Positions 9,976 through 30,916 are shown, counted from the stretch's first letter. The stretch is 64,000 bases of DNA from Thermoproteaceae archaeon (GCA_015521775.1 WANN01000034.1:1-64000), one strand, 5' to 3'. Numbers and translations are program-made. The notes: generated by a model not told the origin, from the letters alone.

Positions 9976-10099
9976 TGGAGCCCCGGCCGGGATTTGAATT
10001 CCCGGGCATTCCCCTCCCGGGACGTCCGCGGCTCCAGCCCCTACGGGTACCCACGATTCCACTGCAGCCCGCCGCTCTGCCGGACTGAGCTACCGGGGC
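9976..10099 (-). tRNA. tRNA-Cys (GCA) with three introns
   Basis: Acceptor GCCCCGG pairs with CCGGGGC; U73 fits Cys; CCA is encoded. Anticodon GCA is at 10065-10063. To obtain a normal tRNA three introns must be removed: 10049-10061 (13 nt, canonical 37/38), 10024-10040 (17 nt, 45/46) and 9999-10015 (17 nt, 53/54 in the T arm). The second shows a textbook bulge-helix-bulge: central pairs CCGT/GCGG and inner GGC/GCC with 3-nt bulges. The third has central CCCG/CGGG. Without these cuts the anticodon stem and T loop cannot form. A TATA-like aatattaaatc lies about 26 bases upstream. Confidence 0.85.
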
Positions 10100-25670: not shown

Positions 25671-25730
25671 TAGCGAGCCCGACATTTCCAGCCAAACCCA
25701 CAGGATAGGTGACGGACGTGTCGGCGCAAA

Positions 25731-25740
25731 GCTTATATTG
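25731..25740 (+). promoter_or_regulatory. TATA box of the tRNA-Leu(TAG) locus
   Basis: The element gcttatattg is identical to that of the second Leu locus. With the spacing of other tRNA genes here, transcription should start near 25758-25762, that is, just before the D arm. Confidence 0.5.
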
Positions 25741-25762
25741 TGCGTGGCATTGTACTGTCGCC

Positions 25763-25857
25763 GCCCGCCCGGCAAGAGGGGCAAGACGCAGGTCCCCCAA
25801 GGGTTTAGGTCCCTGTGGCGTAGGCCTGCGTGGGTTCAAATCCCACCCCCCGCACCA
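25763..25857 (+). tRNA. tRNA-Leu (TAG) locus lacking a visible 5' acceptor strand, with an intron
   Basis: From the D arm (GCCCGCCCGGCAAG-GGGG) onward this is a class II tRNA: anticodon stem CAGGG/CCCTG with anticodon TAG (25806-25808), long variable arm, T arm GTGGG-TTCAAAT-CCCAC, 3' acceptor strand CCCCCGC, A73 and CCA. A 17-nt intron at 25784-25800 splits the anticodon stem between 28 and 29; it has central pairs GGGG/CCCC and inner GAC/GTC. The matching 5' strand GCGGGGG and U8 are not found upstream in at least several hundred bases. Whether a 5' piece is supplied in trans is open. Confidence 0.7.
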
Positions 25858-25896
25858 GGTGCCTCGCCACTACCTCCCCATCAGTTTAGCGCCGCA

Positions 25897-27075
25897 CTAT
25901 GGGGCACGTAGAGCAGCGGACGCTGTAAACCCTCCTACATGTTGGAGCTGGCCGAAACCGGGCTGGTGCGGGTCATCGCCGTTGTAGGCGGCCAAGTGCA
26001 GCCCAGCGACTGCGTCCCAGCCCGTGAGCTCGGCGTACCTGAACAGCTCCTGCACGCTCTCCAACACGTATTTGTAGTCCTCCACTGCCATCCTCAGCCT
26101 CCGGTAAAGCGACATGGGATCCCCGGCCCTGAACGTCAGTTGTGGGGCCCTCTCGACACATTCCACGAGCCTTGGCACGCGGGAGCATATGGGAGGCCGC
26201 CTCGCGCCCATGGCCACGTGTAGGGCCCCGCTCACACCTATGTCGCAACCGTTGTCGACATAAGGAAGTATCACCGCGTGGGCCGAGGCATACAGGGCCC
26301 CTATCTCCCTACGCGTAAGGAAGCCGTTTATGAAGTGGACTCCGCGTGGGGGAACGCCTAACGCCTCCAACGCCTTCCCCGAGTTGAAGTTGTATGTATT
26401 CTGAGGCTGACCCGCCACTAACAGACGCGCGTCAACGCCCTCCGACATCAGCCTGCCGAATGCCTTGAACAGTACGTCGAGCCCCTTGTCCGCCCTAATG
26501 AAGCCCTGGACGAGGAACGTCATCTGCCCGCTGTTGGGGTCAGGCGCCTCGATGGGGCGCGTCCCATGCGGTATCTGCACCACCTTGCCTGGGTCCACTC
26601 CCTGAAAGGTCAGCTCAGCCTCCTGGAGATAGCTGTGCACCACGATCAGGTCCGCTATCTCGGACACGGCACGCTGAAAATCCGCGTACCCACATGAGTG
26701 ATGTTTCACTGTGTGCATGGTCAGGACCAGCCTATCCCCATGCCTCTTGAGGGCCCTCAGAAAGGCCAGGAACCTAGTGTTGGACGGAAAAACCGAGTAC
26801 TCGTGCTGTACGTGTATTACGTCGTAGTGGCCTTCCACGACGTCGAGTATCTTGGAGAGGTCCAGCGTGCTGCTGCCCGCCAGAGTGTCCACGTCAACTA
26901 TGTTGAAGCCTGCAAAGTCGTACTCGCCGTTCTTCACCACGTCGCCGTTACTGAGCCTGTAAACCGTTATGTCCACGTGTCCACGGATGTTCCTCATGGC
27001 GTTGACAAGGTCGTAGGTGTACTCTGCGATCCCGCACTTGGTTGGAGGGAAAGTAGAAATGTACGCCACCCTCAT
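25897..27075 (-). CDS. Glycosyltransferase, family GT4-like
   Basis: A 392-residue GT-B fold enzyme. The N-terminal acceptor domain starts YISTFPPTKCGIAEYT, the typical glycine-rich opening of GT4 enzymes, and has HVQHEYSVFP near residue 95. The donor domain has VQGFIRADKGLDVLFKA, while the usual EGFG-like donor loop is replaced by GCDIGVSGALHVAMG. It transfers sugars from a nucleotide donor to an unknown acceptor. The tail of about 25 residues after WDAVAGLHL looks unrelated to the fold. ATG 27075 follows AT-rich promoter-like sequence. Confidence 0.85.
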   Translation of the reverse strand: MRVAYISTFPPTKCGIAEYTYDLVNAMRNIRGHVDITVYRLSNGDVVKNGEYDFAGFNIVDVDTLAGSSTLDLSKILDVVEGHYDVIHVQHEYSVFPSNTRFLAFLRALKRHGDRLVLTMHTVKHHSCGYADFQRAVSEIADLIVVHSYLQEAELTFQGVDPGKVVQIPHGTRPIEAPDPNSGQMTFLVQGFIRADKGLDVLFKAFGRLMSEGVDARLLVAGQPQNTYNFNSGKALEALGVPPRGVHFINGFLTRREIGALYASAHAVILPYVDNGCDIGVSGALHVAMGARRPPICSRVPRLVECVERAPQLTFRAGDPMSLYRRLRMAVEDYKYVLESVQELFRYAELTGWDAVAGLHLAAYNGDDPHQPGFGQLQHVGGFTASAALRAP

Positions 27076-27184
27076 GTGGAATATATTACATTATAACAAG
27101 TTAAAGTTTGCTGCATGGTCCAGCCCCCGCAGCCTAAACTCTGTATAAATACGTCGGTTTTATTGTTCTAATGTGCTTAGACTT

Positions 27185-27937
27185 CTATTTGATTTTCATG
27201 CGCATTGAAGAAAAGAAGTCCATACGTATACGTTCGGTCAGTTTCTCGCAGTGATAGACGCTGCAGTACTTGGTGTGTCCGCACAGCCTACACTCAGCCG
27301 CCAGCACCTTGGGTTCGCCCGCGTTCAGCGCCACAGCGGCAAGGTACCCGTCGCCGTTTGTCAGGGCCATCTCACCTCCTACCCGGTACATCTTCTTGAG
27401 AATGGAGATTATCGAGTACCCCACTATCTTCATTGCGGCCACCATCTCCTCTACACTGTCGGTAACCTCGCTCAGACATTCAGGAGCCTCCAAAATACAG
27501 TCGAAATGCGTAAGTATGTAGAGGCCCATCAGCTCTATCCTCTCAAGGGGAGCGCCCTGGCGGTACACCTTCATGTACAGGTCTATAAACGCGCGCACCT
27601 CGCTGGCCGTCATGAATTCGGTGACTCCCCATTCCCTGGCCAGCCTGTGGAGAAGGTAATCCTCTTCCAGACAGTCGTATGAAAGGCACGCTATTTGGCC
27701 CAACGGCGTCGACACGTAGTACGATACCTTGCCATTACCCTTTACCTGTTTTATAGCGCCGCTTATTTCCAGCTTACGCGCCTTGCGGTACGCATAGGAA
27801 AAGTACAGCCCCTCTTCCTTGGCTATTCTATAAACCGTGCAGGGACCGTGCAGTATTATGTATCGCAGTATGCTTAGAGAAGTATCGTCAAGGTTTACCT
27901 GAAGCTTCTCAGCCCAATGCTTTAAGGTTAATGACAT
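27185..27937 (-). CDS. Winged-helix regulator with a C-terminal cysteine cluster
   Basis: About 250 residues from ATG 27937; the open frame extends upstream without a TATA match. Residues 1-85 form a winged helix (TVYRIAKEEGLYFSYAYRKARKLEISGAIKQV). The C terminus has CRLCGHTKYCSVYHC, four Cys that could bind an iron-sulfur cluster or zinc. It is divergent from dsrE and, with 71 bp between starts, probably controls the dsrE-dsrM-dsrK genes in response to redox or metal state; this is inferred from position and the cluster. Confidence 0.65.
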   Translation of the reverse strand: MSLTLKHWAEKLQVNLDDTSLSILRYIILHGPCTVYRIAKEEGLYFSYAYRKARKLEISGAIKQVKGNGKVSYYVSTPLGQIACLSYDCLEEDYLLHRLAREWGVTEFMTASEVRAFIDLYMKVYRQGAPLERIELMGLYILTHFDCILEAPECLSEVTDSVEEMVAAMKIVGYSIISILKKMYRVGGEMALTNGDGYLAAVALNAGEPKVLAAECRLCGHTKYCSVYHCEKLTERIRMDFFSSMRMKIK

Positions 27938-27979
27938 ATATTGATGCCTATATCCAATTTTTAACCATTTGGTAATAAA

Positions 27980-27989
27980 TCTTAAATAT
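27980..27989 (+). promoter_or_regulatory. TATA box of dsrE
   Basis: The element tcttaaatat lies about 26 bases before ATG 28009, in the divergent region with the regulator gene. Confidence 0.5.
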
Positions 27990-28008
27990 GGCCGCGTAGC
28001 CCTCTGCA

Positions 28009-28371
28009 ATGGCCGAGACAAAGCAAGACAAGGTCGTGTTCCTAGTAGCCTCGCCGCCCGCGGACGCGCCGCGCATGCAGACGATGTTGGGATACGCCTT
28101 AGCAGCCGCGTCAATGGGATTTGAGGTCATAATCTTCTTCACGCTTGACGGAATACATACACTGAAGAAAAAGGTTTTCGAGAAGCTCGACAAGACCATA
28201 CAGGAAAGGCTACAGGAATGCATCAAAATAGGATGCAAGGTGTGGGGTTGCTCGTCGGCCGCGGCGACGTTCAACATAAAGCCCGAGGACGTCATTGAGG
28301 GCGCACAGATAATGGGCATAGCCAGCTTCTACAACGAGGCTGCCAACGCCAAGGTGGTCCTTACGTGGTAG
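28009..28371 (+). CDS. DsrE-family sulfur-carrier-like protein
   Basis: A 120-residue protein of the DsrE/F fold. It opens with a strand and the ASPPADAPRMQTML nucleotide-like loop, and has conserved Cys in IKIGCKVWGCS, the position where relatives carry a persulfide. DsrE proteins pass sulfane sulfur between enzymes in the cytoplasm. It is the first gene before the DsrMK-like pair, which fits sulfur oxidation or reduction linked to a membrane complex. Confidence 0.78.
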   Translation: MAETKQDKVVFLVASPPADAPRMQTMLGYALAAASMGFEVIIFFTLDGIHTLKKKVFEKLDKTIQERLQECIKIGCKVWGCSSAAATFNIKPEDVIEGAQIMGIASFYNEAANAKVVLTW

Positions 28372-28472
28372 TTGCAGAGCGGCCGTAGGCGCAGTCCGAG
28401 GGATCCGCCGCTAAGCCTCGATTACCCTTAACAGTGTAATAAGCCTTTTTATGTCAGAGGAGGAGCAGGCGT

Positions 28473-29249
28473 ATGTCGTTGATCGACATAGCAATTTTCG
28501 GCATAGGCCTCTACGCGTCGCTCCTGGTACTGATAGCGGGCCTAGTGGCTAGAACGGCCAGGTGGATAAACGCCAAGAGGCTGACAGGGCTCTACAGCGT
28601 GTCGATACCCTCGGGCCAATATGGGTCGTCCTCGGCCTTGAAGGAAATCGTGAAACGCATATTCACGTTCTATACGTTGAACCTGTCGGACAAACCTCTC
28701 CTCGTGGGCTCACTGATGTTCCATTGGGGCATCTGGATAGCCCTCCTGGGACACCTCTCCATGGTGATACCGCCCGAGACTGTGGGCATCTCCAAAGAGC
28801 TTCAGAAGACCTTGGCCCTATACGTTGGGGGGACCTCGGGAATACTTGCGTTTATAGGTCTGCTAATACTATTCGCCAGGAGGCTTGGCAGGAGGGACGT
28901 GAGGGCCATCAGCACAGCTGACGACTACTTCGCCTTGCTACTGTTACTGGTCCTCGTGGGCCTAGGCCTTGCGCTCACCTTCGTGATAAAGCCAGACTAC
29001 ATGTCCACGGTATCCAAGTGGCTGAGGGGCGTTCTAGCCGGCGATTTGAGCGCTGTCAGCTACATCTCCGTTGAGGGCCCACTGGTGAAGCTGCACGTTG
29101 CACTGGCCATGCTGTTCGCAGCCTACGTCCCCTGGGGCAAAATGGTCCATCCCCTTGGGCTCTTCCTCATGCCTACAGTGGCCGGCAGAAGCATCGGCAG
29201 CTTCATGTATTCCCACGCAGCCAACCTCATCCGGAGAATAACACGTTAA
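28473..29249 (+). CDS. DsrM/NarI-like membrane heme b subunit
   Basis: A 258-residue membrane protein with five to six helices. His residues in FHWGIW, GHLSMV, KLHVALAM and MVHPLG have the spacing of axial ligands for two b-type hemes, as in NarI, HdrE and DsrM. It should exchange electrons between the quinone pool and the iron-sulfur subunit encoded next. A purine-rich GAGGAGGAG lies just before ATG 28473, so this internal gene may use a ribosome-binding site. Confidence 0.8.
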   Translation: MSLIDIAIFGIGLYASLLVLIAGLVARTARWINAKRLTGLYSVSIPSGQYGSSSALKEIVKRIFTFYTLNLSDKPLLVGSLMFHWGIWIALLGHLSMVIPPETVGISKELQKTLALYVGGTSGILAFIGLLILFARRLGRRDVRAISTADDYFALLLLLVLVGLGLALTFVIKPDYMSTVSKWLRGVLAGDLSAVSYISVEGPLVKLHVALAMLFAAYVPWGKMVHPLGLFLMPTVAGRSIGSFMYSHAANLIRRITR

Positions 29250-29288
29250 ATGGCAATAACGTTTTTTACGTGATGTCGAAATAGGCAC

Positions 29289-30680
29289 ATGGAACACGGC
29301 AAGGCCGAGCTCGTTTTAGGCGATACTTCCCACATAAAGCCCCACTGGGCGTCGCCAAGCCTCATACAGAAGTTGCATGAGAGGGTCGGCCTCAAGCTGC
29401 CGGAGGACCAGAAGGCGCACTTCTACAAGCGGCTCCTCGAGGAAGCGGCACGTAATAGGAACGTGGCCATGGCGCTGGACGTGTGCGTGCACTGCGGCGC
29501 GTGTCTAGACGCATGCCATACCTACCAAACCACTAGGGACATATACAACTCGCCGGTGGGCCGCGCCGAACTGGTGAGACGACTCGTCAAGTCGAGCAGG
29601 GTGAGCGGCAAGCTGCTGGGCAGGCTAGTGGGCGCCGAGAGGCCCACGGACGAGTACATTGAGAGGATAGCGACGTACTACTACCAGTGTAACGAGTGTA
29701 GGCGGTGCGGCGAGGTGTGTCCCTTCGGCATAGACCAGGCGGACCTCACTCGGACTGTGCGAATGGTGCTATACGAGTCCGGCATAGCGGCCAAGTACAT
29801 AGCAACGGTTATAGACAACGTTGAGAGGACCGGCAACAATCTGGGCCTTCCCCCCAAGGCCATCGCGAAGACCCTCGAATTTGCCAAGGACAGCATACGC
29901 GAGGAGAAGGGGATCGACGTCAAGGTGAAGCTGGACGAGCCGGCATACGCCCTGCTGCTCCCCCCATCCGCAGACCTCTTCACAAACATAGACACCTTGA
30001 AGGGGTACATACTCTTCCTTAACCTCGTCGGGGTGGACTTCACGTTCAGCACAAAGATGATAGAGCTGGCCAACTTCGGCCTCTTCATGGACGAGAGGCA
30101 CATGAAGTACATCGGCGACATGGTGGTCAAGACCGCCGCAGAGCTAGGCGTCAAGGTCGTCATAGCGGGGGAGTGCGGCCACGGGTGGCGCGCCTTCAAG
30201 AACTACACCGCAGTGGAGCTCGAGAAGCGCGGAATAGCGACGCTGCACATATTCCACCTGGTCGTAGAGGCGATTAGGAGCGGCGCGGTCAAGCTGGACC
30301 CCGAACGTAACGGCGACGTGGTGTACACATTCCAGGACAGCTGCAACTATGCCAGGGGAGGCGACTTAACGGAGGAGCCTAGGTTCATCATGAGGCACGT
30401 GGTCAAGAACTTCGTGGAGTCCCCCAACAATAGGGAGAGGACCTGGTGCTGTGGCGGTGGGGGCGGCCTGCTGACCGACGAGCTGCTCAAGCTGAGGATA
30501 GAATACGCAAGGAAATGGTACGAGGACGTCGTGGCTGTGGGGGCCGGCCACGTAGTGAGGGCATGCGCCATATGCAAGGCCCAGCTCAGCCACACCATAC
30601 CGCACCTCAACAAGGAGTACAACAGGCAGGTCACATATAGCGGCCTTATGGACCTGGTCTACAGGGCTCTAGTGCCGTAG
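29289..30680 (+). CDS. DsrK/HdrD-like iron-sulfur subunit
   Basis: A 463-residue cytoplasmic subunit. Two [4Fe-4S] motifs, CVHCGACLDAC near residue 65 and CNECRRCGEVCP near 137, are followed by a CCG domain with DSCNYARG, CCGGGGG and CAIC, which in HdrB/D-type proteins binds the special [4Fe-4S] cluster for disulfide chemistry. With the DsrM-like subunit it would reduce or oxidise a disulfide or protein persulfide. DsrE upstream suggests the sulfur carrier as partner. No dsrAB or dsrC is in the window. Confidence 0.85.
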   Translation: MEHGKAELVLGDTSHIKPHWASPSLIQKLHERVGLKLPEDQKAHFYKRLLEEAARNRNVAMALDVCVHCGACLDACHTYQTTRDIYNSPVGRAELVRRLVKSSRVSGKLLGRLVGAERPTDEYIERIATYYYQCNECRRCGEVCPFGIDQADLTRTVRMVLYESGIAAKYIATVIDNVERTGNNLGLPPKAIAKTLEFAKDSIREEKGIDVKVKLDEPAYALLLPPSADLFTNIDTLKGYILFLNLVGVDFTFSTKMIELANFGLFMDERHMKYIGDMVVKTAAELGVKVVIAGECGHGWRAFKNYTAVELEKRGIATLHIFHLVVEAIRSGAVKLDPERNGDVVYTFQDSCNYARGGDLTEEPRFIMRHVVKNFVESPNNRERTWCCGGGGGLLTDELLKLRIEYARKWYEDVVAVGAGHVVRACAICKAQLSHTIPHLNKEYNRQVTYSGLMDLVYRALVP

Positions 30681-30778
30681 TTTCACGCATAGCCGTCCGC
30701 CATTTCAAGGGTCACGCCCAAAAACACGCGCCGTCGACGCGTAAACGCCCCATGCAACGAGCGCACTGCCGGCGCAAA

Positions 30779-30788
30779 GCTTATATTG
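30779..30788 (+). promoter_or_regulatory. TATA box of the tRNA-Leu(TAA) locus
   Basis: The element gcttatattg is identical in sequence and placement to that of the TAG locus, so both should start transcription just before the D arm. Confidence 0.5.
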
Positions 30789-30810
30789 TGCGTGGCATTG
30801 TACTGTCGCC

Positions 30811-30905
30811 GCCCGCCCGGCAAGAGGGGCGAGACGCAGGTCCCCCAAAGGCTTAAGACCTCGTGGCGTAGGCCTGCGTGGGTTCAAATCCCACCCCCCG
30901 CACCA
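30811..30905 (+). tRNA. tRNA-Leu (TAA) locus lacking a visible 5' acceptor strand, with an intron
   Basis: Same architecture as the TAG locus: D arm, a 17-nt intron at 30832-30848, anticodon stem CGAGG/CCTCG with anticodon TAA (30854-30856), class II variable arm, T arm, 3' acceptor strand CCCCCGC, A73 and CCA. The 5' strand GCGGGGG is not seen upstream. The compensatory base-pair changes relative to the TAG copy argue that both are functional, so the missing 5' end needs an explanation. Confidence 0.7.
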
Positions 30906-30916
30906 GGTGCCTCAAG

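Follow-up and report, generated by a model that had tools for sequence, protein, structure and literature searches.

The 64,000-nt window analysed here (positions 1-64000 of WANN01000034.1, assembly GCA_015521775.1, from a Thermoproteaceae archaeon) is contig C34 of G000, a 1.40-Mb metagenome-assembled genome (MAG) that is 81% complete, and it carries two tRNA-Leu loci on its plus strand that both lack the 5' part of the molecule. Comparison of the 144-bp blocks at 25722-25865 and 30770-30913 gives exactly seven mismatches, every one in the anticodon arm (first versus second locus: 25783 A/G, 25801 G/A, 25804 T/C, 25808 G/A, 25810 T/A, 25813 C/T, and 25814 T/C). The differences include two compensatory pairs, 28:42 (A-U to G-C) and 29:41 (G-C to A-U), and convert the anticodon TAG of the first locus to TAA in the second. 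An earlier reading of the window from its sequence alone had described this near identity together with the missing 5' acceptor strand, and both descriptions hold base for base: the leucine acceptor/D sequence GCGGGGGTGCCCG is absent from both strands of the window, which also contains no upstream 5' exon that could share a transcript with either locus. ARAGORN makes no tRNA call in the window, and a whole-genome Rfam scan matches only the T arm of the two loci (14.5 bits), its other hits in the window being two unrelated tRNAs.

The UAG gene has a TATA box (CTTATA, 25732-25737) within a promoter common to its paralogues, followed by the leader segment GCCGCCCGCCC (25760-25770) and the sequence GGCAAG (25771-25776), which would form the 3' strand of a bulge-helix-bulge-like junction, as in the tRNA-Leu introns of relatives, with a predicted cut after 25776. 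The 3' exon (25777-25857) spans tRNA positions of about 22 to 76, including an encoded CCA, and is interrupted between positions 28 and 29 by a 17-nt noncanonical intron, AGACGCAGGTCCCCCAA (25784-25800), whose removal yields a tRNA-Leu call by ARAGORN. The UAA gene repeats this layout, with the TATA box at 30780-30785, the leader segment at 30808-30818, GGCAAG at 30819-30824, the CCA-bearing 3' exon at 30825-30905, and an identical intron at 30832-30848. The stretch 25757-25776, upstream of AGGGGC, is leader and not D arm, and the missing part amounts to 24 nt instead of the eight or nine proposed in the sequence-only reading.

A probable shared 5' half for the leucine tRNAs

The sequence GCGGGGGTGCCCG occurs exactly once in G000 (C2:104097-104109, minus strand) and exactly once in G001 (C54:989-1001, minus strand), a 91% complete MAG (JALWZH01) that is the only other member of the genus in our comparison set; in both genomes it lies on a contig other than those of the 3' halves. 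The locus reads TTTAAAT-(23 nt)-GCGGGGGTGCCCGAGCCAGGTCAA-AGGGCGGGCGGCAGAC in both species, so that a 24-nt 5' exon, GCGGGGGTGCCCGAGCCAGGTCAA, covering tRNA position 1 to about 21, is followed by the trailer A-GGGCGGGCGGC; the trailer sequence of G000 and G001 alike is AGGGCGGGCGGC. Read in reverse complement, GGGCGGGCGGC equals the leader segment GCCGCCCGCCC of both window loci without a mismatch, giving 11 perfect base pairs. The surroundings of the 5' half are 91% identical between the two species, while exon and trailer are unchanged. Its TTTAAAT box is centred 26.5 nt upstream of G1, a spacing that recurs at the tRNA-Gly and tRNA-Thr 5' halves described below and at an intact tRNA-Cys gene. 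A search of the kind proposed in the sequence-only reading, for a segment beside a bulge-helix-bulge half and a promoter, finds a single such locus per genome, with a complementary trailer. Among other candidates, L061 (G000:C19:87769) matched in the promoter only, with no tRNA sequence behind it, and the one-mismatch matches inspected (L072, L074) look like coding sequence without tRNA context.

We searched the 144-bp block through G000 and 60 relatives. Four 3'-half loci were found in G000 (UAG, UAA, GAG, and CAA, on C34, C26, and C19) and five in G001 (UAG, UAA, CAA, CAG, and GAG, on C167, C68, C145, and C62), the latter a full leucine set. Recurrence of the architecture at two further loci in G000 and at five in a second species indicates that the pair in the window is not due to chance. 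All nine 3' halves carry the leader GCCGCCCGCCCGGCAAG, in the form (G)(T/G)CGCCGCCCGCCCGGCAAG followed by AGGGGC, and each half, 5' or 3', has its own TATA-like box in both species; the CAA gene has no 17-nt intron. The 3'-half TATA boxes stand 24-25 nt before the leader helix, which puts the predicted start on the opening bases of the 11-bp trans helix. The earlier objection, that so short a leader argues against trans-splicing, is thereby removed, since a trans-splicing model requires a leader of this kind. Promoters of the UAG, UAA, and CAA genes (and of CAG in G001) are nearly identical within a species and different between species. This pattern suggests that the 3'-half paralogues, promoter plus gene (25722-25865, 30770-30913; L151, L129, L156), have been homogenised within each species by concerted evolution of a dispersed small-RNA family, which would explain the near-perfect identity of the two window loci.

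The absence of the 5' acceptor strand, in a MAG that is incomplete, could also be taken to mean that the loci are 5'-truncated pseudogenes, left by recombination or element insertion while intact tRNA-Leu genes elsewhere do the work. The sequence-only reading had named such intact TAG and TAA genes as the finding that would undo it; neither MAG, at 81% and 91% completeness, yielded an intact tRNA-Leu. All five isoacceptors in G001 and all four in G000 are in the halved state, promoters, leaders, and compensatory anticodon-stem changes have been kept, and a matching 5' half with a complementary trailer exists. We consider the pseudogene explanation very unlikely.

To evaluate the joined product, the halves were cofolded and assembled. 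In the cofold, pairing is seen between the acceptor strands (GCGGGGG with CCCCCGC), along the 11-bp trans helix, and in the T arm. The junction can be read as a bulge-helix-bulge that combines GGUC-AA^A-GGGCGGGCGGC on the 5' strand with GCCGCCCGCCC-GGCA-AG^A-GGGG on the 3' strand; its central helix of 4 nt (GGUC with GGCA), paired at three of four positions, is bordered by two 3-nt bulges, AAA and AGA. The motif, together with the identity of the product to intact genes of relatives, places the putative cut at 21/22 or 22/23, since cutting one base later gives the same product. Joined exons without the 17-nt intron are 88-nt molecules, and ARAGORN calls all nine joined molecules tRNA-Leu (anticodons UAG, UAA, GAG, CAA, and CAG), with the long variable arm TGGCGTAGGCCTGC and Leu anticodons marking them as class II. 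The joined UAG product equals intact tRNA-Leu genes of six genomes of the family, from sister genera, at 88 of 88 bases, and those of three more at 87 of 87. In G000 and G001 themselves, the genomic match to this molecule begins only at position 31, because no 5' part is present in cis. Duplex energies discriminate poorly, with 3 of 6000 random window segments tying with or beating the real pair, owing to sequences that are G/C-rich throughout; the case hence rests on exact in-register complementarity and its conservation.

We regard it as very probable that the window loci are the 3' halves of split tRNA-Leu(UAG) and tRNA-Leu(UAA), served by one 24-nt 5' half encoded elsewhere. The sequences directly show both halves, their promoter-like elements, and the complementarity between them; they rebuild a known tRNA exactly and are conserved in two species. 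From these observations we infer that the halves are transcribed, cleaved, ligated, and used in translation. Transcription of each 3' half would begin at the 11-nt leader or close to it, driven by that gene's TATA box, and transcription of the single 5'-half gene (G000:C2, minus strand, about 104.1 kb) at tRNA G1, likewise from a box of its own. The trailer would then pair with any of the leucine 3'-half leaders, and GCGGGGG with CCCCCGC. The tRNA-splicing endonuclease would cut the bulge-helix-bulge-like junction (5' GUCAA^A, 3' AAG^A) and also excise the 17-nt intron, and the exons would be joined by a ligase, probably RtcB, which is present in both genomes. One 24-nt 5' piece would in this way be common to all leucine isoacceptors (four seen in G000, five in G001).

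Several points weigh against the split interpretation. The predicted junction motif is a relaxed bulge-helix-bulge, and a competing GCC:GGC pairing is 1.6 kcal/mol more stable and represents the thermodynamic optimum. G001 has a clear splicing-endonuclease subunit, but only a weak match (21.8 bits, below the cut-off) was found in G000. Finally, an intact tRNA-Leu could sit in the gaps of MAGs that are 81% and 91% complete. Apart from the relaxed junction, the putative halves display every feature of archaeal split tRNAs that can be read from sequence.

Could both parts instead belong to one transcript, as a single gene with a very long intron or as a permuted gene? The related genome G017, discussed below, has two 5' halves at distances of about 4.1 and 1.5 kb from similarly oriented 3' halves, which would fit such a gene. 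In G000 and G001, however, the 5' half lies on a different contig from the 3' halves, a separate TATA box precedes each 3' half, and a single 5' half stands against four or five of them, all of which makes a single transcript highly improbable; a permuted tRNA, with the 3' part upstream of the 5' part, was rejected because the halves are on different contigs in both species. Reconstruction of the 5' strand by a Thg1-like 3'-to-5' polymerase, which on the pattern of tRNA 5' editing would need the CCCCCGC acceptor strand as its sole template, is extremely unlikely, given that a genomic 5' half exists whose trailer pairs with the leader and that the missing stretch holds the whole D loop, for which the 3' half offers no template.

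Other predicted split tRNAs, neighbouring genes and relatives

In a T-arm-based inventory, nearly every other tRNA of the genus has its 5' acceptor strand in cis, the exceptions being Gly and Thr sets. tRNA-Gly (CCC, UCC, and GCC) is split near 25/26, with one 5' half in common (G000:C32:27810, plus strand, L159; G001:C131:4643, minus strand, L160) and 3' halves in G000 at C13:28746 and C2:114417, both on the minus strand, and in G001 on C83, C131, and C75. The Gly 5'-half trailer is GGCGGGTGCGGGGC, to be compared with leaders such as GCTCCGCACCCGCC; ARAGORN on the Gly joints is too permissive to fix the exact intron ends. G000 holds an extra, degenerate-looking copy of the tRNA-Gly(CCC) 3' half (C16:3746, minus strand, L111; acceptor ...CCGCCAC), which could be either a pseudogene or another variant. 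tRNA-Thr(UGU) is split as well, with a long trans helix (cofold -116 kcal/mol), its 5' half at G000:C28:7755 (minus strand, L165) and G001:C57:7178 (minus strand) and its 3' half at G000:C17:2874 (plus strand, L112) and G001:C138:8831 (plus strand); two other genes with the same acceptor (L161, L163) are intact in cis. By these sequence criteria, at least nine tRNAs are split in the genus.

Introns occur in many tRNAs of G000. One example in the window is a tRNA-Cys(GCA) at 10085-10099 (minus strand, L167) with several noncanonical introns, which ARAGORN missed.

The 5-kb segment between the two leucine loci codes for a glycosyltransferase, a DsrE-like protein, a nitrate-reductase-gamma-like subunit, and a Cys-rich Fe-S protein. 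The last three genes, of which the second is DsrM-type and the third DsrK/HdrD-type, lie in a row on the plus strand (28009-30680), which suggests sulfur or heterodisulfide electron transfer. The proposal that this segment is a mobile element flanked by tRNA repeats was rejected, as the region is collinear in G001 with 87% identity over 9 kb and its genes are ordinary. From the sequence-only reading, then, the trans origin of the 5' end survives; the size of the missing piece and the TATA objection do not, and the 5-kb segment is no flanked element.

In the sister genera, tRNA-Leu is usually intact. Several tRNA-Leu genes of G013 have an intron exactly at the split junction, GTCAA[AGGGGCGGGTGGTTGCCCGCCCGGCTAG]AGGGGC, whose ends are nearly those of the leucine trailer and leader of the genus, and G004 has two other introns at the same junction. 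G013 belongs to genus g3, apparently Pyrobaculum, as does G017, which has four 3' halves (UAG, GAG, CAG, and CAA) and two 5' halves with different trailers (C89:44350 and 48502, plus strand, and 53561 and 55038, minus strand; also C34 and C102; L259, L217, L221, L246, L202). Inspected by eye, one trailer is complementary chiefly to the leaders of UAG/CAA and its counterpart to those of GAG/CAG; duplex energies separate the trailers cleanly for GAG/CAG only. The four joined products of G017 are also tRNA-Leu; the UAA gene of this genome is intact and has a canonical intron. A TnpB/Cas12f-like gene (L259:12544-13827, minus strand) lies directly upstream of one G017 5' half and is possibly a trace of the splitting event. 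The site-matched introns in G013 and G004, together with the partial split in G017, point to an intron at a fixed site as the source of the putative tRNA-Leu splits, which probably arose on more than one occasion.

Comparison with known split tRNAs

Split tRNAs, which are rare, stand at the centre of the debate on the age of tRNA halves, ancient or recent. The review of Kanai 2015 (PMC4390854) stated that neither split tRNAs nor translocatable introns were known among class II tRNAs (Leu, Ser), and used the absence of split ones as an argument on tRNA evolution. Known totals are six split tRNAs in Nanoarchaeum equitans and six in Caldivirga maquilingensis (PMC4390854, PMC4033280). We found no report of a split class II tRNA in the later open-access literature, with subscription papers and tRNA databases outside the search. 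It is likely, on present sequence evidence, that all leucine decoding in this uncultured genus relies on a single 24-nt RNA, to which five different 3' halves are joined in trans; that with three tRNA-Gly and tRNA-Thr(UGU) at least nine tRNAs are trans-spliced, which would be the largest set of split tRNAs yet reported and would include the first of class II; and that this state was reached when a transposed intron was opened at one fixed site, a Pyrobaculum relative providing a partial and seemingly independent case. A split tRNA-Leu would remove the premise of class II absence, and a single 5' half for all isoacceptors would be a striking bottleneck for translation and regulation. The family offers a series running from intact genes, through an intron at the site, to four of five split with two 5' halves and finally to all split with one 5' half, in which the intron-to-split route can be studied directly. 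Standard tRNA finders, it should be cautioned, can miss every tRNA-Leu in such genomes.

The closest comparison is C. maquilingensis, with split tRNA-Ala(CGC/UGC), tRNA-Glu, and a tri-split tRNA-Gly (PMC4033280, PMC4390854, PMC4090602). It is likewise free-living and of the same order, and shares separate promoters, complementary leaders and trailers, 5' halves common to synonymous tRNAs, and noncanonical split positions (25/26 and 29/30 in Caldivirga). Its junctions are of bulge-helix-bulge type, of which the genus has a putative relaxed form, and the tRNA-Gly of the genus is divided close to 25/26, a position also used by some of the Caldivirga tRNA-Gly set. Only class I tRNAs are split there, however, with at most three isoacceptors sharing pieces, whereas the genus described here has a class II tRNA-Leu split in the D arm at about 21/22 and one 5' half for all five isoacceptors. 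N. equitans also joins tRNAs from two pieces, and its Glu isoacceptors have one half in common (PMC4390854, PMC3218864), but in that reduced symbiont the common piece is the 3' half, the anticodon lies on the 5' halves, and tRNA-Leu is not split. Staphylothermus tRNA-Lys(CUU) and Aeropyrum/Thermosphaera tRNA-Asp(GUC) are recent crenarchaeal splits, some with halves a few kb apart as in G017 (PMC3218864), yet these are single class I tRNAs split at 30/31 or 37/38. Finally, the noncanonical translocatable tRNA introns of Thermoproteales, as in G013 and G004, occupy the same junction with almost the same ends as the leader and trailer; they lie in cis within one transcript, whereas in the genus the intron appears to have been opened into two genes.
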